A DNA stretch of 64,000 bases, taken from positions 372,001 through 436,000 of the forward strand of contig LR792634.1 in the NCBI GenBank assembly GCA_902827205.1. The letters are read 5' to 3'. Made by a program: the position numbers and the translations under genes. A model generated the notes under the pieces. The model had not been told where the DNA came from. It ran no database searches and saw only the letters and a list, made by a program, of their open reading frames with translations. Of the stretch, positions 52,174-63,168 are shown piece after piece (position 1 is the first letter of the stretch; each line of letters opens with the position of its first letter). Source of the stretch: Methanocaldococcus lauensis (GTDB lineage: Archaea > AGJL01 > Methanococci > Methanococcales > Methanocaldococcaceae).

Positions 52174-53058
52174 TTAATACTTATATGGAAAATTTTTTAT
52201 CAATTTTAGCATATCACTTTCTGATATATATTCCTTTGTGCCTATAATCAAACTTGGTCTTTCCAATATTTTACCAAACAATATTATAGGACATCTATTT
52301 TTTACAGCAATATCAACTACTTTTTTATATTCTTCCTCTGGAACTGCTAATATATAAGTTCCCAAGTATCTTGTAGCTCTTGGATATGGGAGAGAATATA
52401 TATTAGCTCCTTTTTTTGATTTTATTAACATCTCTAATAAATTTCCTAACCACCCTCCCCTTGATGCATCTTTACAGGCGTTTATTTTAATATTTTTATT
52501 TAAAATTTCTAAGTATGTGTCAAATTTTTTCTTTGCCTTATAAATTCTCTCTCCAACATCGCCCTCTACAGGATCTCCAAGCATAACTAACAAATCTTCC
52601 TCTTTAGCCCCTCCATCCCTTACTATTAAATCATCTTTAATTAATTCTCCAAAGACTGCCACTGAAATGCAAGATTTTAGACCTTCAATTGTCTGAGTAT
52701 TTCCCCCAATTATTGGAATCTCTAAACCTATACTCTGCTTTCTTAACCCATTAACAGCATATTTTATCTCATCTTCATTTTTTGCTTGAATAGCATTTAA
52801 TGCAAATTTTGGCTTAGCCCCCATTGCCACTACATCACATGCTGTATGAATTAAAGCTGTCTTAGCTCCTAATTTTAGAGGATATGGTCCTTCCATATTT
52901 AAAACAAAATTATTTACTACTATAGCGTCATCTCCTGCTTTAATACCACATTTTAAATTTTCAACTAAATCATCAAAATGCCAAAAGGCTTTTCTTGGAT
53001 AATTTGTTTCTAATATGTGATTTATAGCAATCTTTAACTCATATTCTAAATTTTCCAT
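52174..53058 (-). CDS. AIR synthase (PurM)-related protein, possibly methanogenesis marker 2
   Basis: A 294-residue protein with the PurM/SelD/ThiL fold: GIKAGDDAIVVNNFVLNMEG (about 42-61) with the ATP-binding aspartates, HTACDVVAMGAKPKFALNAI near 78-97, GGNTQTIEGL and CKDASRGGWLGNLLEMLI. The family makes or activates small molecules with ATP; one methanogen-specific branch is marker protein 2, and a place beside mmp15 and mmp17 makes that plausible. TTGGTGTGACT decides the ATG at 53058. Confidence 0.72.
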   Translation of the reverse strand: MENLEYELKIAINHILETNYPRKAFWHFDDLVENLKCGIKAGDDAIVVNNFVLNMEGPYPLKLGAKTALIHTACDVVAMGAKPKFALNAIQAKNEDEIKYAVNGLRKQSIGLEIPIIGGNTQTIEGLKSCISVAVFGELIKDDLIVRDGGAKEEDLLVMLGDPVEGDVGERIYKAKKKFDTYLEILNKNIKINACKDASRGGWLGNLLEMLIKSKKGANIYSLPYPRATRYLGTYILAVPEEEYKKVVDIAVKNRCPIILFGKILERPSLIIGTKEYISESDMLKLIKNFPYKY

Positions 53059-53077
53059 AGTCACACCAAATATTTTA

Positions 53078-54175
53078 TTATTCATTTCTTAACGCCTTTA
53101 TTGGGTCTAAATTTGCCGCTTTATATACAGGATATAATGCAGAGATTAAAGAAGTTAAAATTCCAAATATAACTCCAATTATCATATAAACTATTACATA
53201 ATAAGATAGTGATGTTTTTAACAGATAATGTACAATTAAATATCCAAAGAATAAACTCAAAAATGCTCCTATTAAAGAACCAATAATCCCCAAAATTAAT
53301 GCCTCATATAAAAATAATAATATAATGTCTCTTTTTGAAGCTCCCAAACTTCTCATCACTCCAATTTCTTTTGTTCTTTCAACAACACTCATTAACATAA
53401 CATTTCCAATACCAATTCCAGCAACTAATAGAGAAATAGCCCCTATACCCATTAAAAAGTAAGAAACTTTATTTATAACATCATTAATCTTATTAATTAT
53501 TAAATTTAAAGATAAAATGATATATTTTTTCTCCTTCCTATTTAGGATTTTTTCAGTTTCATTTTTGATTTTATTTATATCATTTATATTTTTGACATAT
53601 AAAATAACCCTTGAATAATTCTCATTTCCATAAAATCTTTTATATGTTTTTGCAGTTAAAATTAAAGAGTTATCTGGAAAAAGAAATGTACTATTGTATA
53701 TTCCATTAATTCTTAAAGAGATATTTTTTATCTCCAATTGATTTCCAATACTAACACCATTTACTTTTGAAAAAAAGGTATCAACAGCAACTGATGTGTC
53801 TGAAACTTTTACTCCTAAATTTAAATACTTTATATCATTTTTATCAATACCAAAGATATTTGCATAAGCCCTCTTATTTTTACCTTTTATATACACATAA
53901 TCTGATGTGGCATAAATTGGAATAATCTTACAATTTAAAATTCTTAATCTATCAATATCTTTTTTATCAATTGATGTATATCCATTCTGATAATTTGGAA
54001 ATATTATAATATAATTTGAAATACTTCCCAAATTTTCCATAATTCCTTGTTTTAATCCTCCTCCTAAAATTCCTAATGAAGATATTGCTGCTACTCCAAT
54101 AATTATCCCTAACAATGCTAAAATACTTCTCAAAAAATGCCTTTTTAAATTTCTCTTAGCCATTTCAAAATACAT
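53078..54175 (-). CDS. MacB-type ABC transporter permease
   Basis: A 365-residue permease with the MacB/FtsX layout: one N-terminal transmembrane segment ([20 protein letters not shown]), a periplasmic-type extracytoplasmic domain (about 40-240), then three segments from about 245 to 350 containing [20 protein letters not shown]. Such permeases do not pump substrates across the membrane in the usual way; they power extracytoplasmic work or peptide export. It ends the operon that begins with SpoIIM. GTGATATTTT precedes the ATG. M. jannaschii carries the same gene order, so this is not new to this genome. Confidence 0.88.
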
Positions 54176-54197
54176 AAAATATCACTTATCTAACTTT

Positions 54198-54887
54198 TCA
54201 ATTTAATACCTCTTCTTTCTCAATTCTTCCATCTTTAATGTAAATTATTCTATCTCCAAATCTTGCAACATTTGGGTCGTGAGTAACTACAATTATAGTT
54301 TTTCCATTTTCATTTAATTTTTTTAACAACATCATAATCTTTTCTCCTGTCTTACTATCCAAAGCTCCTGTTGGTTCATCTGCTAATATAATTGGTGGAT
54401 TATTTGCCAAAGCTCTCGCTATAGCCACTCTCTGCTGTTGTCCCCCACTCAATTGATTTGGCTTATGATTGGCAAATCTCTCCTCTAATTCAGCCATTTT
54501 TAAACACTCTAAAGCCCTTTTTTTTCTCTCTTCTTTACTCATTGAATTTCTATACTTAAAAATTAGTGGAAGTTCTACATTTTCTAAGGCAGTTAATAGA
54601 GGAATTAAATTAAATTGCTGAAAGACAAAACCAATTTTATCTCTCCTAATTTTTGTTAATCCATTGTCATCTAAGTCATTTGTCCTTATATTGTCAATAT
54701 AAACCTCTCCTTCTGTTGGTTTGTCCAAACAACCAATAATATTTAAAAGTGTAGATTTTCCACTTCCAGAAGGGCCCATAATTGAAACAAACTCTCCCTC
54801 TTTTATTCTTATATTTAAATCTTTTAGGGCGTATATGGTCTCATCTCCCATTTTGTAGATTTTTGTTACATTTTTTAGTTTAATCAT
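54198..54887 (-). CDS. MacB/LolD-type ABC transporter ATPase
   Basis: A 229-residue ATPase with Walker A GPSGSGKS, the signature LSGGQQQR and Walker B IILADEPTGALDSKTG, the LolD/MacB pattern. Its M. jannaschii counterpart is a structural model for ABC ATP-binding proteins. It pairs with the MacB-type permease encoded 22 bases downstream. GGGAAAGAATG precedes the ATG, and its start overlaps the end of the upstream gene by 8 bases, indicating coupling. Confidence 0.95.
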   Translation of the reverse strand: MIKLKNVTKIYKMGDETIYALKDLNIRIKEGEFVSIMGPSGSGKSTLLNIIGCLDKPTEGEVYIDNIRTNDLDDNGLTKIRRDKIGFVFQQFNLIPLLTALENVELPLIFKYRNSMSKEERKKRALECLKMAELEERFANHKPNQLSGGQQQRVAIARALANNPPIILADEPTGALDSKTGEKIMMLLKKLNENGKTIIVVTHDPNVARFGDRIIYIKDGRIEKEEVLN

Positions 54888-56400
54888 TCTTTCCCTTTTT
54901 AAATCCTCTATAAATTAAATAAACCACTCCTATAACAAATATAATTCCTATCCCCATTACTAAATAATTAATTTCCTCACTATTTTCATTTTTTAAGGAA
55001 ATAACTTCTTTATTAATTTTTATTGTTTTATGGATTGTTATTAAGTTGTTATTTTCATCCCTATATGTTATTTTAATTGGAATTTCGCTTACATTTCCAT
55101 TTATTACACAGTGTAATTCAAAACTTCCATAATCATCAGGGTTTAAAGTTCCTACAAAATAGTTCTCATATGGCTTTTTTGGGATTATATTCTTTGTTTT
55201 TTCTATTGAAATTAGAACACTCTTCGCCTTCCCAGTTCCTATATTGTCAATATCCCCAGTTATTTTTACCTCATTAAATGAACTTTCTATATTAATTCCA
55301 CTTAAAACTAAATCTGCCTTTCCTATAACATTTATTGTTAAATTTTTCTCTATTTGGTTGTTATCAAAGTATATAACTACGGGAATTGAGGTAATTCCTT
55401 CTTTATCTACTTTTATTTGGAATGATGTATTTTTTATTTCTCCTTTTTTAATAAATACGGTTTTTTGGTTATTTCCAATAAAGTATTTACTTATTTGGAC
55501 TATAAATAGAGAATCTTTATAGTTATTTTTTATTGAGATTGTTAAATTATTAATTTTTCCAACTGTTATTATTGGATTGTTTATATTTATCGAAATTAAT
55601 TTATTTGGAAACACATTGAATGTTAAACTGCCTAAATTCTCAACTATATTTTTATTCTGATATGTTAAAGTTTCTGTTTTTGAATCCTCATCTATTGTTT
55701 CTGATTTTTGAGTTAATTCCAATAAATTATAAGGATTTTCGTAGGATATTTTATAATTTATATAATAAACTCCCTCTTTTTTAGCAAATATTGTTAGTGG
55801 AATGTAAGTTGTAATTTTAGGACTCAAAGATGTTATTGTAAAAGTATTGTCTCCTAAAATTACTAAATTGTTTGAATTTTGGAAGGTTATTTTAATATTC
55901 TCAGCTGTTCCTGTTCCTTTATTAGTTAATAGAATTAAAACTTTATTAGTTCCAACTTTTAGAATATTACTGTTAGGTTTTATTATAATATTTGCCTTTC
56001 CTCTTACAGGAAGTGTAAAAATTCTATTTTCAGAGTATTGTTCTCCATTTTTAGTATAGTTACAATAAACTACCATTTTATAGTCATAATTTGGTGCATT
56101 ATCTTTAATTTTTATTATAAAATGAGCAACACCAATTTCAGATGGGAAAAGATGTCCTATCCACTGCTTACCTTTGATTATTTGAATATTATTTTTTGAC
56201 ATTTGGTTGTAAGGTTTTATATAAACGAGAGTGTTATTAATCTCCTCATCTGATTCAAATGTTACATATAAATCATAGGTTTTTGAAGGCTCTAAGTATT
56301 GAGTTTTATAGTCAATATTTTTAAATGTTATATAGGCAGAGGTTTGAGTTAAAAGAATAAAAAGTAAAAAAGTAATTAATAGATTTTTTAATTCTCTCAT
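54880..56400 (-). CDS. Membrane-anchored CARDB/NEW3-like surface protein of the ABC operon
   Basis: A 506-residue protein with an N-terminal signal peptide (NLLITFLLFILLTQTSAYIT), several extracytoplasmic beta-sandwich repeats of the CARDB/NEW3 type (for example KVGTNKVLILLTNKGTGTAE and ADLVLSGINIESSFNEVKIT), and a C-terminal membrane segment near 475-500 followed by the tail RGFKKGKND. It probably folds outside the membrane and works with the MacB permease, like the periplasmic partners of MacB exporters in bacteria. GAGGGAAAAAT precedes the ATG. Confidence 0.82.
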   Translation of the reverse strand: MRELKNLLITFLLFILLTQTSAYITFKNIDYKTQYLEPSKTYDLYVTFESDEEINNTLVYIKPYNQMSKNNIQIIKGKQWIGHLFPSEIGVAHFIIKIKDNAPNYDYKMVVYCNYTKNGEQYSENRIFTLPVRGKANIIIKPNSNILKVGTNKVLILLTNKGTGTAENIKITFQNSNNLVILGDNTFTITSLSPKITTYIPLTIFAKKEGVYYINYKISYENPYNLLELTQKSETIDEDSKTETLTYQNKNIVENLGSLTFNVFPNKLISININNPIITVGKINNLTISIKNNYKDSLFIVQISKYFIGNNQKTVFIKKGEIKNTSFQIKVDKEGITSIPVVIYFDNNQIEKNLTINVIGKADLVLSGINIESSFNEVKITGDIDNIGTGKAKSVLISIEKTKNIIPKKPYENYFVGTLNPDDYGSFELHCVINGNVSEIPIKITYRDENNNLITIHKTIKINKEVISLKNENSEEINYLVMGIGIIFVIGVVYLIYRGFKKGKND

Positions 56401-56414
56401 ATTTTTCCCTCAAT

Positions 56415-57068
56415 TTATAGAAATTTTAATACACTGTATAGTTGATATAAACCAAATATAACTGTTGGGATTAATGCAGTTATAAATGCCTTCTTTAACT
56501 CTAAGTTTCTTGCATATTTTATAGCATAAGTCCATATATATAAGTTCCATATCGTTACAGCAAATCCTATTAATGTATTGGTGTATATTAAAGTTTTTGG
56601 AAATATCTGTTTCATAACCATTTTAACAATAATAGGGTTTTGTAGTTGTTCCATTGATAATGTAGGAATATGAACATTTGATAGGAAATAGTATCCAATT
56701 GGTATAGTTATACATAAAGCAATTAAATTAGGTAAAAATCCATAGCCAGTGAATTCAAAAGTTCTTTTAAAAGAGCCATTCCCACCAAATGCCATTGATA
56801 TAATATGCATAACTATTGCTATTAATAGCCACGCCACAAACCCTCCAATAAATGCTGAAATCGCTAATATAATTGTCATAAATGATAACATGCTCTGCAT
56901 ATCTTGAGGAAAGATTTTAAACATAACTGATGATGTATAGTAGGAGTATATTGCTATTAATATAGAGAAAATTAAAACTATAATAAATGGCTCTTTAAGA
57001 GAGATTTCTTTATTAGATAAATTTTTAAAGAAGTTGTTTGGATTTAAGATGAGTTCCTTTATATCCAT
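56415..57068 (-). CDS. Yip1-domain membrane protein
   Basis: A 217-residue protein of the Yip1 family: a cytoplasmic N terminus (MDIKELILNPNNFFKNLSNK) then five or six transmembrane segments (about 30-50, 60-95, 105-130, 160-185, 195-215). Yip1 proteins are widespread, of unknown transport or membrane-shaping function; archaeal copies commonly lie beside ABC exporters. GGGGGATATA precedes the ATG. It is 14 bases from the beta-sandwich gene and 54 from SpoIIM, all on the minus strand. Confidence 0.82.
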   Translation of the reverse strand: MDIKELILNPNNFFKNLSNKEISLKEPFIIVLIFSILIAIYSYYTSSVMFKIFPQDMQSMLSFMTIILAISAFIGGFVAWLLIAIVMHIISMAFGGNGSFKRTFEFTGYGFLPNLIALCITIPIGYYFLSNVHIPTLSMEQLQNPIIVKMVMKQIFPKTLIYTNTLIGFAVTIWNLYIWTYAIKYARNLELKKAFITALIPTVIFGLYQLYSVLKFL

Positions 57069-57122
57069 TATATCCCCCGTTATTTTTTTAGTGGTTAATT
57101 AGTATTTAGTTATATTTAAATT

Positions 57123-57662
57123 TTATGTTAATAGATAATTTGCTACTTTTGGAGTAATATAAACCTCCACAAAAGCGGCTATAATTATCAATATTATTGA
57201 AATTAATGCTAATTTTAAAAATTCTTTTATATCTTCTTCTGTTATTGGTTTTTCTTTTTTGTCTAAGAGATAAAGAGTTATTTCATAAGGAATCTTAAAC
57301 CCAGCAAGTGCAGATATAAGCATTGCTGGAATTTCAAATATTCCATGTGGAAGAATTAAGGCTAAAATAAGTTTTATAGGCATTCCGCTATTGTATGCAT
57401 TAGAAATTAATAGTCCAAGATTAAAACCATTAAATATTAAGTTTATAAAAGTGGATAATCCGAAAGTAATGGAGCCAGCTAACATTAAAAAGATTACTTT
57501 TAAGTTGTTTGTTAATATTATCGTTAAAGGGGCAGGCGTGAAACATTTTGGTAGATATCTATTATTTTTATTTATATAACTTCCATTTATGTTTATGGAT
57601 AATAATAATCCAAGAGAAAATATCAATGTACTTATTAATATTAGAAACATGACCTTTTTCAT
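57123..57662 (-). CDS. SpoIIM/DUF95 membrane protein
   Basis: A 179-residue protein with a signal-anchor N terminus (MKKVMFLILISTLIFSLGLL) and four or five more hydrophobic segments; LILPHGIFEIPAMLISALAG (about 108-127) is the DUF95/SpoIIM signature. SpoIIM-family proteins occur in circular-bacteriocin gene clusters and in sporulation. Here it is the intact copy of a gene of which two deleted copies lie nearby. GGGGAATTTA decides the ATG at 57662; earlier in-frame ATGs lack a site. It follows the peptide cassette and precedes the exporter operon. Confidence 0.87.
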   Translation of the reverse strand: MKKVMFLILISTLIFSLGLLLSININGSYINKNNRYLPKCFTPAPLTIILTNNLKVIFLMLAGSITFGLSTFINLIFNGFNLGLLISNAYNSGMPIKLILALILPHGIFEIPAMLISALAGFKIPYEITLYLLDKKEKPITEEDIKEFLKLALISIILIIIAAFVEVYITPKVANYLLT

Positions 57663-57682
57663 TAAATTCCCCATATTAGTCA

Positions 57683-57901
57683 TTAACTTAAAGTTTCAGA
57701 TATTTGGAGTTTTTTAGTTATGAAAACTCTTTTTAGTAAGTAATCAAGTACAAATATAACAATAAGTCCTACAATTGGGATAAGATAATTTTTATTTATT
57801 ATATATGCATAGAGGATAATAAAAATAAAGATACCATCAATAACAAAAATTATTCCTTTTTCTTTAGTACTTAGTAATTTTTCAGAATAATATGGATAAC
57901 A
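57683..57901 (-). pseudogene. Small basic membrane protein fragment
   Basis: Minus-strand 57901-57683 is open for about 72 codons with two hydrophobic segments and a basic tail (EKGIIFVIDGIFIFIILYAY...YLLKRVFITKKLQISETLS) but no start codon in frame. An ATG at 57901-57903 lies in a neighbouring frame; removing one T between it and the SEKLL codons would join them. It is therefore a truncated or frameshifted gene. Its size, two segments and positive charge resemble immunity proteins of circular bacteriocins. Confidence 0.5.
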
Positions 57902-57958
57902 TCACACACTATTGGAAAAATAAAAAAACCTTATATTAACCTCATGTTTTGACTAAAA

Positions 57959-58165
57959 TTAGTTATGTTTATGTTCATCAATTTTTGTATTTTTAGCCCT
58001 ATTGAAGATATTAAATACCATATAGGTAAATAATCCAGCTGTAATACCTATAATAGCTCCAATCCATCCCTGACTTAATGTGCTTATATTACTTAAAATA
58101 TAATATAGCAATATTCCATAAATACCTGCGATTATACATCCAATAAGTATATTATAAAATTTCAT
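57959..58165 (-). CDS. Small two-segment membrane protein of the peptide cassette
   Basis: A 68-residue protein with two hydrophobic segments (about 5-28 and 32-54) and a charged tail (NRAKNTKIDEHKHN). No family is recognised. It lies 60 bases downstream of the peptide A gene, between it and SpoIIM, all on the minus strand, where bacteriocin loci place their immunity protein. GGTGATTTA precedes the ATG. Confidence 0.65.
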   Translation of the reverse strand: MKFYNILIGCIIAGIYGILLYYILSNISTLSQGWIGAIIGITAGLFTYMVFNIFNRAKNTKIDEHKHN

Positions 58166-58225
58166 TAAATCACCAGATAATAATTTATAAAAAATATAAT
58201 GAAAAAATATATGGATTAATTGATA

Positions 58226-58555
58226 TTAATATCCTGCTACTGCTGCTCCAATAATAGCTCCTATTACTGCTCCTGCAGGTCCAGCCAATGATCCACATTC
58301 TGCACCTTCTTCTGCACCAGCCATCATAAGTCTAAGTGCTAAAGCCCTTCCAACAGCCTTTCCAACTTTTTTTCCTCCATCTACAAGAACATACCCTAGA
58401 ACTCCACTAGCTGCACCTCCTGCAGCACCATACTTCTCTGTTAAGTAGTATCCAATATCCCCTAAAACAACAGGCTCAGCGACTAAGGCACCTATCATGC
58501 TTACTAAAACTACAGCTCCAAAAATCTTATATACATCCTTTCCCAAAAATTTCAT
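58226..58555 (-). CDS. Secreted hydrophobic Gly/Ala-rich peptide A (bacteriocin-like precursor)
   Basis: A 109-residue peptide precursor. Residues 1-26 look like a signal peptide (MKFLGKDVYKIFGAVVLVSM then IGALVA), with a likely cut after ALVA; the next residues EPVVLGDIG are shared with peptide B. The core is very rich in Gly and Ala, has a basic patch (DGGKKVGKAVGRALALR), an acidic patch (GAEEGAECGS) and ends in GPAGAVIGAIIGAAVAG, a GxxxG glycine zipper like those of membrane-active bacteriocins. GAGGTGGCATT precedes the ATG but can be paired with CCACC in the leader. No homologue is recalled. Confidence 0.72.
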   Translation of the reverse strand: MKFLGKDVYKIFGAVVLVSMIGALVAEPVVLGDIGYYLTEKYGAAGGAASGVLGYVLVDGGKKVGKAVGRALALRLMMAGAEEGAECGSLAGPAGAVIGAIIGAAVAGY

Positions 58556-58803
58556 AATGCCACCTCTTTATGGTGGTTCAATATAGCCCGTTAATATTGG
58601 CTCCGCCCATAGAGGGCATCATCGCCAACTATTTTTTAATTTTTTTATTAGGTAACTTTAACATATTTTTTAATATCCATATTATTTTTCGTAATTATAA
58701 TTGTAAAAACTCATATATATTACTATTTCAAACTAAATAGTAAAGTATATAATTAGCCAATTAAGATTTTTAATAATTGTAAAATAACTAAAACTTTACA
58801 AAG
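58551..58803. repeat. About 250-bp duplicated upstream region, copy A
   Basis: Positions 58551-58803, the leader and promoter region of peptide A, are almost identical to 60270-60520 in front of peptide B, differing by a few substitutions and one small indel (ATTAGG versus ATAGG). The stretch fills the gap 58556-58822. Within it, CGAAAAATAATATGG (minus strand, about 58678-58692) and GAAATAGTAATATATAT (about 58714-58730) are promoter-like; the first gives a leader of about 100 bases. Confidence 0.93.
58560..58628 (-). promoter_or_regulatory. Leader RNA with kink-turn and RBS-sequestering hairpin (peptide A)
   Basis: On the minus strand 58628-58597 reads UUGGC-GAU-GA-UGCCC, loop UCUAU, GGGCG-GA-GCCAA: a C-helix, a three-base bulge, tandem G.A/A.G pairs and a non-canonical helix, exactly the kink-turn layout. 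Downstream, CCACC (58576-58572) pairs with GGTGG (58564-58560), loop AUAAAGA, hiding the ribosome binding site; between them CAAUAU...AUAUUG (58599-58578) can pair. L7Ae binds kink-turns in archaea, and several riboswitches contain one. The fold is derived by eye. Confidence 0.62.
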
Positions 58804-58822
58804 ATAAGGTGATTTATAAAAA

Positions 58823-59065
58823 TTACTTTAATTTTTTTATTAGTTCTTCTTTTGGAATATTATTCCACTTAGAAACATCATTTAAAATAGCATTTAATGT
58901 TCCTTTTGCTATCTCTTCGTGATATGGAACGGTTATGTTATGGATTCCATATTCTGTTTCTTTTCTTAGTCGTATATGACTACCTCTTTGTCTAACAATC
59001 TCATATCCCAACTTTTTAAGAAATTTTATTAAATCTCTACCACTAACAACTGGAAGTTTATGCAA
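58823..59065 (-). CDS. hicA: HicA-family mRNA interferase toxin
   Basis: An 80-residue toxin with the double-stranded-RNA-binding-like HicA fold: SGRDLIKFLKKLGYEIVRQR then GSHIRLRK, whose histidine is catalytic, and ITVPYHEEIAKGTLNAILND. HicA cleaves mRNA unless bound by HicB. The gene overlaps hicB by 8 bases and is expressed after it. It sits between the SpoIIM remnant of cassette 2 and the peptide A leader. Confidence 0.92.
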   Translation of the reverse strand: MHKLPVVSGRDLIKFLKKLGYEIVRQRGSHIRLRKETEYGIHNITVPYHEEIAKGTLNAILNDVSKWNNIPKEELIKKLK

Positions 59066-59270
59066 AATTAGACACCTCCATTTCAGAAACAGAGAGGATT
59101 TTTATAATTTCTCCTGCCTTTATCTCATCTTCAAAATGCAATTCTACCGCTTCCTTAATATTTTTCATTAATTCATCTAATGTCTTTCCCTGTGTAAATA
59201 TACTTACATCAATACCTTCTGCAACCCAGTATTTGCCATCGTAAAAAACTCTAAAGTTAATAGTTTTCAT
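59058..59270 (-). CDS. hicB: HicB-family antitoxin
   Basis: A 70-residue HicB-type protein with the partial RNase H-like fold: FRVFYDGKYWVAEGIDVSIF, then TQGKTLDELMKNIKEAVELH, which is the HicB signature. A separate DNA-binding domain is absent, so it is the short antitoxin type. AAGGTGGTTTAA precedes the ATG. It is upstream of hicA in the usual archaeal order (antitoxin first). Confidence 0.9.
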   Translation of the reverse strand: MKTINFRVFYDGKYWVAEGIDVSIFTQGKTLDELMKNIKEAVELHFEDEIKAGEIIKILSVSEMEVSNFA

Positions 59271-59327
59271 TTAAACCACCTTAATTTTGGTCTTACTCTT
59301 CTATCTTTATAATCTTCTATTTAAACC

Positions 59328-59459
59328 TTATGTTAATAGATAATTTGCTACTTTTGGAGTAATATAAACCTCTACGAAAGCGGCTATAGATTTTTAGTTT
59401 TATAAATATAAAGTCAGATAGAAAATTAGGATTGTTAATATTATTGGAAAGTTTTTCAT
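59328..59459 (-). pseudogene. Internally deleted SpoIIM remnant (cassette 2)
   Basis: The minus strand begins MKNFPIILTILIFYLTLYL then stops, resembling the SpoIIM N terminus (MKKVMFLILISTLIFSLGLL). It ends at 59328 with about 60 bases nearly identical to the SpoIIM 3' end (VEVYITPKVANYLLT region, 57123-57185). About 400 bases of the middle are missing. Together with the other pieces this fills the 59271-59525 gap between hicB and the membrane-protein gene. Confidence 0.75.
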
Positions 59460-59525
59460 GGTTTCACAATTAAGATGAATTTTTGTTATACTGATTTTTA
59501 TTGCAGAGATTAGAACATAATAGTT

Positions 59526-59930
59526 CTAAAATTTTGAATGAGTTAAATATTTATTATTTTCCCATATAATTAAATAGAAGAATGAAACCAATATTCCACC
59601 TCCAAACCCAGCAAAAAATGATAATGGTAAGTAGTTGATTATGTTAAAATAATTAATCATCGGTTGAATTATCCAATCAAAGATATTTATAGCCACAACT
59701 ATAAATACCAGATATATTATTAACAATTTCTTATTTTTTAATAACTTCTCTTCTAATTTTAAAAATTTTACAACTAGAATATTAAATATTGCTCCAGAGA
59801 TTATTAACAATGTATTTAAAATTAAATTGCTTGTTATGTCTATTAGCCCATAATACATTTGTAATATTATTATAAAATAAGACAATAGTATGAATAAAAC
59901 TCCGATGAGTGAAATAAAGAATATATTTTT
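59526..59930 (-). pseudogene. Multi-segment membrane protein of cassette 2 (frame probably broken near its start)
   Basis: From 59885 down, 119 residues with four hydrophobic segments are open (YGLIDITSNLILNTLLIISG..., KLLIIYLVFIVVAINIFDWI, YLPLSFFAGFGGGILVSFFY). The only local start is TTG at 59885 without a ribosome binding site. An ATG at about 59939-59941 (MKIKK), behind GGTGATAAG, would join this frame if a run of seven T (59926-59932) had eight, so a one-base frameshift or sequence error is likely. It takes the place between peptide B and the SpoIIM remnant that the 68-residue protein has in cassette 1. Confidence 0.55.
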
Positions 59931-59996
59931 TTATTTTCATCGTACATGTCTTATCACCAATTAGGTAAAAAAATAAAATGAGTAATAATTTAAATA

Positions 59997-60274
59997 TTAT
60001 AGTACAACAGAAGAATATGTGACTACTGCAGCCATTCCAGCAACACCTATACCTCCACAAAACATTAATGGAATACAGGCAGTAGTTCCTTTTATCGCAG
60101 CCCAAAATGCCTGTTTATAACAAGCGTTAGCTGCATTTATATCTTTCTCATAATATTGATAATATAAACCACCAATATCACCTAAAGCAACAGGCTCAGC
60201 TACTAAAGCACCTATCATGCTAACTAAAACTACTGCTCCGAAAACTTTTAATACACTACCTTTAATATATTCAT
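59997..60274 (-). pseudogene. Secreted hydrophobic peptide B, one-base frameshift at codon 2
   Basis: Restoring one A after ATGAA gives a 92-residue precursor whose start, MKYIKGSVLKVFGAVVLVSM then IGALVAEPVALGDIG, matches peptide A almost residue for residue. As written, the ATG at 60274 runs into a stop after eight codons; the first in-frame ATG is the MIGA codon at 60218. The core differs from A: it is Tyr-rich at first (LYYQYYEKDINAANACYKQA) and contains three cysteines, then IKGTTACIPLMFCGGIGVAG. It shares the same 250-bp upstream DNA. The frameshift may be real or a sequence error. Confidence 0.7.
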
Positions 60275-60520
60275 AATGCCACCTCTTTATGGTGGTTCAA
60301 TATAGCCCGTTAATATTGGCTCCGCCCATAGAGGGCATCATCGCTAACTATTTTTTAATTTTTTTATAGGTAACTTTAACATATTTTTTAATATCCATAT
60401 TATTTTTCGTAATTATAATTGTAAAAACTCATATATATTACTATTTCAAACTAAATAGTAAAGTATATAATTAGCCAATTAAAGTTTTTGATAACTGTAA
60501 AATAGTTAAAACTTTACAAA
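60270..60520. repeat. About 250-bp duplicated upstream region, copy B
   Basis: Near-identical to 58551-58803 (see copy A). The copy ends just before the RelE-type toxin gene. Differences cluster at its far end (AAAGTTTTTGATAACTG versus AAGATTTTTAATAATTG). Confidence 0.93.
60279..60347 (-). promoter_or_regulatory. Leader RNA with kink-turn (mismatched) and RBS hairpin (peptide B)
   Basis: Same structure as in copy A: UUAGC-GAU-GA-UGCCC, loop, GGGCG-GA-GCCAA (60347-60316) and CCACC/GGTGG over the ribosome binding site (60295-60279). One change (G to A) leaves an A.C mismatch in the first helix, so this kink-turn should be weaker. Confidence 0.58.
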
Positions 60521-60534
60521 AAACCTAATATAAA

Positions 60535-60801
60535 TCATGGAAATTTTTTGTAAATCTGTTTTCTGTGTAATACTCTATAAAAAATAATCTTCCCATTTTC
60601 ATATTTAAAACCAATTCTATAATCCCCTATTCTAATTCTGTAGTAATTCTCTGCCCCTTTTAACTTTTTTACATCTGGAATTTCAGATAAACTATTTTTA
60701 TTGGGAATTTCTTCAAAAACTAATTTTTTAATCTTTATTTGTATATTTTTAGGTAGATTTTTTAAATCTTTAATAAAAGATTTTTTAAAATATACTTTCA
60801 T
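60535..60801 (-). CDS. RelE/ParE-family toxin
   Basis: An 88-residue protein with the RelE fold: [40 protein letters not shown] (about 49-68) and [17 protein letters not shown], with the basic and Arg residues expected in an mRNA interferase. It follows an antitoxin-like gene by 7 bases on the same strand. It lies just beyond the copy-B leader, between cassettes. Confidence 0.9.
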
Positions 60802-60808
60802 AATTTCA

Positions 60809-60991
60809 CTATTCTAATAACTTTTTAGCCGTTTCTAAATCAATTTCTTCCTCATCTTCTACCTCTTCCATTGCCTTTAAAAGTCCATAATCTAATAATA
60901 ATTCTTCAATTTTTTTAAATATCTTATAATCTACTATAACCCCTTTGATATTTCCTTTCTCATCTGTAATATATGATTGAACAATGCCCAT
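60809..60991 (-). CDS. Antitoxin of the RelE-type pair
   Basis: A 60-residue acidic protein ([20 protein letters not shown]...[20 protein letters not shown]), typical of the antitoxins encoded before archaeal RelE toxins: an N-terminal beta-strand region and an acidic helical tail that would wrap the toxin. GGTGGTTAAA decides the ATG at 60991. Confidence 0.78.
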
Positions 60992-61032
60992 TTTAACCAC
61001 CAAATAATTATTTATTATTGTTAATTATTATT

Positions 61033-61217
61033 TTATGTTAATAAATAATTTGCTATTTCTGGAGTGATATAAACCTCTACAAAAGCAACTATAGATTTTT
61101 AGCTTTTGATTTATTTCATCTCCTTTATAGTTTTTTGAAAAATTGTTTATGAATATAAAGCCTGAAATGAAACCTATTGAGAAGATAAGATTGTTAATAT
61201 TATTGGAAAGTTTTTCA
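61033..61217 (-). pseudogene. Internally deleted SpoIIM remnant (cassette 3)
   Basis: It begins MKNFPIILTI, as in the cassette 2 remnant, with a frameshifted continuation (IFSIGFISGFIFINNFSKNY) that follows SpoIIM. It ends at 61033 with about 60 bases closely matching the SpoIIM 3' end. The middle is gone. It starts 5 bases after the stop of the next pseudogene. Confidence 0.7.
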
Positions 61218-61221
61218 TGGT

Positions 61222-61542
61222 TTCACATAACAAATTTGATAATAGCGCATATTACTAAAATTTCAACAAATATGAGTAATAAAATCATAATTATTAAAAT
61301 TGCTTTTGAAATTTTATATATTAATCCATTTGATTTATTTTGATTATATTCCATATAAAATAATAGTTTAATAAGAACTATCACAGCAATTGGCAATGAT
61401 AGTATCCCTAAAATTACTAAAAAATTTTATTATTGTAATGGGATGCTATTACTGTTGCTATACCAATTAGAAATATTTCCAAAAATATATTATTATTAAA
61501 TATTTTGTTATCCATAATTGTTTTTACTAATTCTAAACTCAT
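61222..61542 (-). pseudogene. Small membrane protein of cassette 3, frameshifted
   Basis: From ATG 61542 (after GGGTGATTAA) the frame encodes MSLELVKTIMDNKIFNNNIF, LEIFLIGIATVIASHYNNKI, then stops at TAG (61417-61419) next to a run of six T. In the next frame it continues ILGILSLPIAVIVLIKLLFY and AILIIMILLLIFVEILVICA to the stop at 61222. The whole would be a three-segment protein of about 105 residues. The 61004-61713 gap holds this, the SpoIIM remnant, and AT-rich promoter-like sequence before argH. Confidence 0.65.
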
Positions 61543-61713
61543 TTAATCACCCTCATAAAAATTGTTATTGTAATTTTATAACTATATAATAACAAAAACC
61601 TTATTTAATTCAATTTCTTTTTTATCCATACTAACATTGAATATCAAATGCTAAATATTTTAATATCAATTTTTGTAATTATCTAAAATAACACACAAAA
61701 TATGGTGAGAATT

Positions 61714-63168
61714 ATGAACATTTTGAGAAGAGGTAGATTAGGGAACTCTATTAAGGAAGATGTAGCAAAATACACAACAAGTTTAGATTTTGACAAAGAA
61801 ATTTTTGAGGCAGACATTTTATGTGATATAGCCCATGTAATAATGCTTTATGAGGAGGAAATTATAGATAAAGATACTGCAAAAAAGATTATTGAAGGTT
61901 TGAAAGAAATTTACAAAAATGGAATAGAAAGTTTAAACTTAGACCCTTCCTTAGATGATATACATATGGTTATTGAAAATGAGTTAATTAAAAAACTTGG
62001 TGAAGATGTCGCTGGAAGAATGCACACTGGAAGGAGTAGAAATGATGAAGTAGCAACAGATTTAAGATTAGCATTGAGAGATAAGGTTTTAGAAATTATT
62101 AAATTATTGATTAATATGCTAAAAGATTTATTAAACTTGGCAGATGAGCATAAGCACACTTTAACTGTTGGATATACTCATTTACAACACGCTCAGCCAA
62201 CAACATTTGCTCATCATCTATTAAGTTATGTTTCAGCAATTGAAAGAGATATATTGAGATTATTTGATGCATATAAAAGAATCAATATTTCTCCATTAGG
62301 TTGTGGAGCGTTGGCAACAACTGGATTTAAAATTAATAGAGAGAGAACAAAGGAACTTTTAGGATTTGACAAATTAATAGAGAACTCAATGGATGGAGTT
62401 TCTGCAAGAGATTTTATATTGGAAGTTATGGCTGATTTGGCAATATTGGGAACTAACTTATCAAAAATTTGCGAAGAGTTAGTTCTATTTTCAACTTATG
62501 AGTTTGGAACTGTTGAAATAGCAAATGAATATTGCTCAACCTCTTCTATAATGCCTCAGAAAAAAAATCCTGATGTTGCTGAAATTGCAAGGGCTAAACT
62601 TTGCAAATTAAATGGAAATTTAGTTACTGCATTAACAATATTAAAGGCATTACCAAATACTTACAATAGAGATTTGCAGGAAATTACTCCTAATTTATGG
62701 GAGAGCATATATATTACAATAGATACAATAAAAATGATTCATGGAATGCTAAAAACTTTAAAAGTTAATAAAGACAGAATGAGAGCGTTGGCATATGTAA
62801 ATTATTCTACTGCTACAGAATTGGCTGATACATTGGTTAGAGAGGCAAATATACCATTTAGAACCGCCCACGGAATCGTTGGTGAGGTTGTTAGAAAGTC
62901 AATTGAAGAAAAGAGAGATATATTGGAAGTTATAAAAGAGGTTTTACAAAAATACAATTTGAAAGTAGATGAGGAAAAGATAAAAAAGGCATTAAATCCT
63001 TATGAAAATGTCAAAATGAGGAATGTTATTGGAGGTCCTTCTCCAGAAGAAGTTGAAAAAAGAATAAAGGCATTTAAAAAGAGATTAGAAAAATATGAAA
63101 AAGAAGTAAATGAAAAAATTAATAAAATAAATAAAATTAAAGAAAATCTTCTGTCCTATGAAATTTAA
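61714..63168 (+). CDS. argH: Argininosuccinate lyase
   Basis: Cleaves argininosuccinate to arginine and fumarate, the last step of arginine synthesis. The 484-residue protein shows the fumarase-superfamily motifs: [20 protein letters not shown] and [18 protein letters not shown] (about 85-120), [20 protein letters not shown], and the signature loop [19 protein letters not shown] (about 275-295) with catalytic Ser and Lys. TATGGTGAGAATT decides the ATG at 61714. It marks the edge of the cassette region. Confidence 0.96.

Follow-up and report, generated by a model that had tools for sequence, protein, structure and literature searches.

A probable polymorphic peptide-toxin and immunity array, mostly decayed in this copy, beside an MJ0796-type transporter operon in Methanocaldococcus lauensis

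Archaeal gene clusters built around SpoIIM (DUF95) were brought to notice a decade ago: passages in Makarova et al. 2014 place arCOG01996 (DUF95) with the most frequent 'dark-matter' genes, remark on the clusters that it forms and on a SalXY-like transporter, and suggest variable membrane-associated defence systems (PMC4158269). In bacteria, SpoIIM proteins are encoded in all known circular-bacteriocin clusters (PMC6131525), one of which also has a YIP1 gene (PMC8534725), and YknWXYZ, a MacB-type pump that includes a Yip1 protein, has been linked to the protection of Bacillus against the peptide toxin SDP (PMC4887032). Polymorphic toxin/immunity systems, as far as part of one account describes them (PMC3482391), join constant delivery to a variable toxic part, with matched and orphan immunity genes and recombination via constant flanks; L7Ae represses translation via kink-turn mRNA leaders (PMC5539422). 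Here we compare with these systems a locus at 57123-61542 of a 64,000-nucleotide stretch of M. lauensis (contig LR792634.1, positions 372,001 to 436,000; hereafter the window), which is probably a polymorphic archaeocin/immunity (peptide-toxin) array whose copy in the window is mostly decayed.

The array lies on the minus strand between an ATP-binding cassette (ABC) transporter operon and a flanking plus-strand gene (61702-63168) that we take, by its sequence, to be argH. As a first-pass annotation of the sequence had proposed, it comprises three repeat units (80-99% identity) of peptide, small membrane protein and SpoIIM genes; the open SpoIIM gene is confirmed by a match to PF01944 (E 6.8e-28). 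By gene content, rather than arCOG number, these cassettes correspond to those outlined in passages of the two accounts of arCOG01996 (PMC4158269, PMC5898192): there too, in the same three lineages (Methanococci, Thermococci and Archaeoglobi), a SpoIIM-type gene stands together with Yip1 and with small membrane proteins that have diverged, and a SalXY-like ABC transporter lies close by. Unlike the present description, the passages concerned, figures and supplements aside, describe no peptide genes, no pairing of cores with partners, no orphan partners, no replacement of cassettes and no kink-turn. SpoIIM cassettes have been known since 2014-2015; no earlier account of the peptides, the kink-turn or the immunity logic was found, the novelty of the peptides being provisional, and what is newest in the picture is the control by a kink-turn together with the architecture of exchange. 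A survey of archaeal antimicrobial peptides by Makarova et al. 2019 (mBio) reportedly exists and would be the likeliest place for an earlier description of the peptides.

An earlier suggestion, to look for peptide genes beside SpoIIM in other Methanococcales, proved fruitful. Most Methanocaldococcus genomes, and several from other Methanococcales, carry this leader and cassette, with 1-6 cassettes per relative and up to six consecutive SpoIIM copies. One scan of a genome collection with the SpoIIM alignment brought up the three-gene cassette also from Thermococcus sp. JdFR-02, from other Thermococci and from many Archaeoglobaceae, where its neighbours often include a Yip1 gene and genes like HicAB or VapBC. 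Two contigs labelled Arcobacter sp. and Desulfurellaceae (loci L082, L088) bear archaeal-type cassettes and are probably mis-binned.

Cassettes have a constant-variable-constant build. Mean pairwise identity within genomes is high for the leader (0.87) and the SpoIIM tail (0.91), low for the core (0.27) and the small membrane protein (0.23), and in between for the N-terminal part of SpoIIM (0.46); between genomes, leader identity goes down to 0.59 and that of the variable parts is unchanged. Each genome thus keeps its leaders and tails uniform as cores and partners are shuffled. The leader and core values (0.87 vs 0.27) parallel the constant delivery part and variable effector part of polymorphic toxins. 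The cassettes differ from those systems, as part of the account presents them (PMC3482391), in having peptide-sized cores and a second constant element downstream (the SpoIIM tail), and no recognised toxin domain was found here.

Related cores are paired with related membrane proteins (10, against a mean of 0.8 and a maximum of 5 in 2000 permutations), and the association holds with near-identical copies removed and Thermococci and Archaeoglobi added (8 vs 0.5; 0/5000 permutations as high). L063 and L082 match each other in core (z 31) and also in partner (z 10.6) under different leaders (Methanococcales vs Archaeoglobi-type). Besides matched downstream partners, orphan partner genes are present: 19 further open reading frames (ORFs) in cassette loci have z >7 to cassette partners, most being small membrane genes outside complete cassettes, and one genome (G001) has a run of six orphan small membrane genes, each resembling the partner of a different core. 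By analogy with toxin systems, such orphans are the usual mark of immunity genes retained without their matching toxin. The exchange itself can be seen by comparing the window with genome G009: the two are 97.3% identical in DNA over 52177-57518 (transporter operon and SpoIIM tail), then unrelated over the SpoIIM N-terminal part, membrane gene and core, and again 89-97% identical over the leader and 5' region. The replacement of one cassette by another between constant flanks is here directly visible. Elsewhere in G009, an opposite-strand 650-amino-acid (aa) ORF (L191:1699-3651) breaks the distal array, and the adjoining RelB-ParE pair is identical to that of the window.

From sequence comparison we infer toxicity, immunity, export and an adaptor role for SpoIIM. 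The constant leader would take the peptide to the membrane, where the hypervariable hydrophobic core would be its active part, and immunity to that core would come from the small membrane protein encoded next to it, which is just as variable. SpoIIM may act as adaptor, its variable N-terminal part making contact with either the peptide or the immunity protein, its constant tail docking on the shared complex of Yip1, beta-sandwich protein, MJ0796-type ATPase and MacB permease, which would export the peptide or clear it from the membrane. The segment from core through immunity gene to SpoIIM N-terminal part would be swapped by recombination via the constant flanks; in Methanococcales, translation may be restrained by the kink-turn, probably L7Ae-bound, and often also by a Shine-Dalgarno hairpin. 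A wider proposal, for which we see even chances, is that these cassettes form a combinatorial archaeocin system of hyperthermophilic Euryarchaeota, in which core and immunity modules pass from one species or order to another and enter frames particular to each lineage (with the leader upstream and the SpoIIM tail downstream), Methanococcales peptide genes and genes for larger leader-bearing secreted proteins stand under one L7Ae/kink-turn translational switch, and the MJ0796 operon would gain a role. If true, a bacteriocin-type weapon system of heat-loving archaea, hardly studied so far, would be common to the main groups of hydrothermal-vent Euryarchaeota. Its genetic logic, with leader and adaptor tail constant, the core variable and immunity matched to it, would make many unannotated small genes interpretable, and MJ0796, an ABC ATPase with solved structures, would have a proposed role; the kink-turn mRNAs would add a new class to those known and tie L7Ae to conflict genes.

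The first-pass annotation had seen in the locus a possible relative of circular bacteriocins. A bacteriocin-like system, with peptide, small membrane immunity protein, SpoIIM and MacB-type exporter, has good support from comparative genomics; the circular family label has not. On that reading the cores would be cut from the leader, joined head to tail by the SpoIIM complex as in enterocin AS-48, and would open membranes. Enterocin AS-48 and relatives indeed share with the cassettes SpoIIM, a hydrophobic peptide of ~70 aa (cores here have a median of 71 aa, with AS-48-like hydrophobicity and Gly/Ala content), a small membrane protein and a MacB-type accessory pump, that of the AS-48 region being comparable to the window operon. 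For the small cationic hydrophobic immunity protein of bacteriocin clusters, a possible counterpart lies in the small hydrophobic membrane proteins that covary with the cores. However, profile searches with peptides A and B of the window and four relatives gave no match to PF09221 or TIGR03651; the cassettes have no dedicated ATPase gene beside SpoIIM, only the shared MacB-type ATPase; median net charge of the cores is near neutral (-2 vs +6 for AS-48); and multi-cassette arrays and a signal-peptide-like leader set the archaeal loci apart. Cassette SpoIIM proteins also form their own archaeal clade in the tree, a point weakened by long branches. Membership of the circular-bacteriocin family is thus not supported, and true circular bacteriocins are an unlikely explanation; the peptide system may work like a circular bacteriocin. 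As to the origin of the SpoIIM proteins, the tree rejects an archaeal housekeeping paralog and does not support direct descent from circular-bacteriocin SpoIIM, long branches again weakening the latter point. No close SpoIIM was found in the plasmid collection, and viral contigs yielded a single distant one, on a contig with its own circular-bacteriocin-like precursor. On an IMG/VR contig (L159:4594-5390) such a precursor is followed by a SpoIIM gene, and the L159 precursor gave weak matches in the same scans (TIGR03651, E 2.5e-4, below cut-off; PF09221, E 0.012).

Covariation of a polymorphic secreted peptide with a matched membrane protein would be explained equally well if cores were pheromones and the small membrane proteins their receptors or sensors, the polymorphic pairs defining strains. 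That partners are mostly of 2-4 helices and 57-160 aa, with no recognised signalling domain among those scanned, that a series of orphan partners would be more useful as immunity, and that SpoIIM with a MacB-type pump is typical of toxin systems together make such signalling improbable. Lower still we place the proposal of Makarova, Galperin and Koonin 2015, a complex for membrane remodelling or vesicle formation whose subunits evolve fast: passages there cite SpoIIM and Yip1 homologs with such roles elsewhere (PMC5898192), but hypervariable cores, matched and orphan partners and cassette swapping would be unexpected in a structural complex, and the 2014 paper, in the passages concerned, preferred a defence system (PMC4158269). 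Several points weigh against the peptide-toxin and immunity array that we favour. Receptor-pheromone pairs would covary similarly, and the permutations control only partly for shared ancestry. Cassette 1 of the window is without the usual partner of its core class (class I), the adjacent 68-aa gene being no relative of class I partners. An AlphaFold2 model of peptide A from 14 sequences (predicted local distance difference test, pLDDT, 51) gave no usable fold. Five genomes, one of them incomplete, have the transporter without a detected cassette, so the transporter may have another role. In other structure searches, the SpoIIM model (pLDDT 83) had no significant match in the PDB, and a PDB sequence search with the peptide profile found no match.

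Nearly every Methanococcales peptide gene is preceded by a kink-turn hairpin, sometimes in tandem, of the form GGC-GAU-GA-N-stem-loop-stem-NGA-GCC. Among 26 distinct sequences, standard pairs fill 98.9% of pair cells (81.7% shuffled) with a covariation score of 0.49 (0.175 shuffled), and slid registers collapse. Single-sequence minimum-energy folds gain only modestly over shuffles (z -1.5 to -3.1), and the argument for RNA structure is carried by covariation, not by such folds. Like kink-turn leaders, the element is a covarying secondary structure near the Shine-Dalgarno sequence. In 22 of 33 peptide genes the Shine-Dalgarno sequence itself lies in a hairpin, paired with a CACC-type arm upstream of it, against 0 of 124 other genes at the same loci. 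The kink-turn model matched strongly in 14 Methanococcales genomes, each of which has cassettes; in those that lack cassettes there were zero matches, or matches near E 0.01 only. No credible match was found at Thermococci and Archaeoglobi cassettes, and Rfam has no family for the leader RNA.

The hairpins resemble L7Ae kink-turn mRNA leaders (PMC5539422, PMC6298567) in the GAU bulge with tandem G.A pairs and in lying near the Shine-Dalgarno sequence. They differ in standing on putative toxin genes, in being often duplicated, with stable and covarying stems, and in having C:G at -1b:-1n, which is not C:G in l7ae leaders. By this analogy, L7Ae binding at the peptide-gene kink-turns can be proposed, and with it probable translational repression of the peptide genes. 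Many of the strong matches beyond the training sequences stand before genes, or their relics, for leader-bearing secreted proteins of 241-387 aa, which are possibly larger effectors of the same regulon. Kink-turn and peptide leader occur together on such proteins at L192:1520-2398, L193:727-1452, L194:537-1424, L195:551-1714 and L197:707-1585, and several of these larger genes are followed by genes for small multi-helix membrane proteins. Two further kink-turns, one in the M. lauensis genome itself (L199:420-456; C1:556420-556456) and one at L197:5200-5241, precede a gene or relic for a protein with ELNELSNYIRNERYQQ, which is perhaps DUF4855-like.

The window copy of the array looks decaying or recently rearranged, because units 2 and 3 are broken and cassette 1 combines a relic of its immunity gene with an unrelated 68-aa gene (all features below are on the minus strand). 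Cassette 1 is the sole unit with both peptide and SpoIIM genes open. Its kink-turn hairpin (58596-58629; 44.3 bits with model R1; covariation) and a CCACC-7-GGTGG hairpin over the Shine-Dalgarno sequence (58560-58576) precede the gene for peptide A (58226-58555; 109 aa), which has the conserved hydrophobic leader and a Gly/Ala-rich core of class I; the first-pass annotation had already described the peptide as Gly/Ala-rich. The gene for the 68-aa small membrane protein (57959-58165) is unrelated to the proteins that normally accompany class I cores, and is followed by a 5'-truncated relic of the cognate small membrane (immunity) gene (57683-57889), identified by its scores to class I core partners (z 11.6, L066; 9.9, L064; 8.8, L072; other partners clearly lower). 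The SpoIIM gene (57123-57683, start maybe at 57662) is open and has the variable N-terminal part and constant tail. This unit had been called intact, which is true of peptide A and SpoIIM and fails for the immunity gene.

In cassette 2, the kink-turn hairpin (60315-60348; 39.7 bits with model R1, whose training includes this copy) and the CCACC-7-GGTGG hairpin (60279-60295) stand before the peptide B gene (59997-60274), which is broken because a frameshift directly follows its ATG at 60274; the core frame is open (59997-60269) and the core is kin to that of L069 (z 11). The small membrane protein of this unit (59526-59885; about 110-119 aa) has homologs in L059 (z 33) and L068 (z 26), neither with an adjacent peptide. 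SpoIIM is a relic of ~130 bp keeping the two ends only (59328-59459), so that the deletion noted earlier stands, with the peptide frameshift to be added to it. In cassette 3 the SpoIIM gene had been taken as kept; it is instead a relic (61033-61218) with start and C-terminal tail but an internal deletion, whose end junction resembles that of the unit 2 copy, and its N-terminal part is 86% identical to SpoIIM of L070. The small membrane (immunity-type) gene of this cassette (61223-61542; ORFs 61417-61542 and 61223-61396) is probably broken too, and a search for a related partner found none.

Two toxin-antitoxin pairs separate the three units, a RelB-like antitoxin with a ParE-family toxin between cassettes 3 and 2 (60535-61003; PF18506, E 6.5e-20; PF05016, E 7.2e-12), and a HicB antitoxin (59058-59270) with a HicA toxin (58823-59065) between cassettes 2 and 1 (58823-59270; PF07927, E 7.5e-18; PF15919, E 2e-5, just under cut-off). 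These pairs, and the kink-turn and Shine-Dalgarno hairpins 5' of both peptide genes, are additions to the first-pass annotation.

The operon next to cassette 1 was correctly described there as a co-oriented set of four genes. These encode a Yip1-family membrane protein (56415-57068; PF04893, E 8.3e-29), an extracellular CARDB beta-sandwich protein (54880-56400; PF07705, E 1.5e-6), a MacB/LolD-type ABC ATPase orthologous to MJ0796 (54198-54887; PDB 1F3O, 1L2T and 3TIF, E <1e-129) and a MacB/FtsX-type permease (53078-54175; PF02687, PF12704). PDB names for the MJ0796 structures are still hypothetical or uncharacterised protein. Yip1, ATPase and MacB-type permease in one operon recall YknWXYZ of Bacillus (PMC4887032), from which the archaeal operon differs in the adjoining peptide cassettes and in having the CARDB beta-sandwich protein in place of a membrane fusion protein. 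Close relatives of the beta-sandwich gene are found in 13 of 14 genomes with cassettes vs 5 of 21 others (Fisher p 8e-5, uncorrected for phylogeny).

Toxin-antitoxin genes (HicAB, RelB-ParE, VapBC-like) directly adjoin cassettes repeatedly, in three archaeal classes (L063, L066, L071, L076, L086, L090, L095, L099, L108 and L198, in addition to the two pairs of the window). Archaeal ATPase_2-type genes lie within some arrays (L067:945-2042, L068:8030-9127, L065:6538-7551), the L067 copy, the sole one scanned, matching PF01637.

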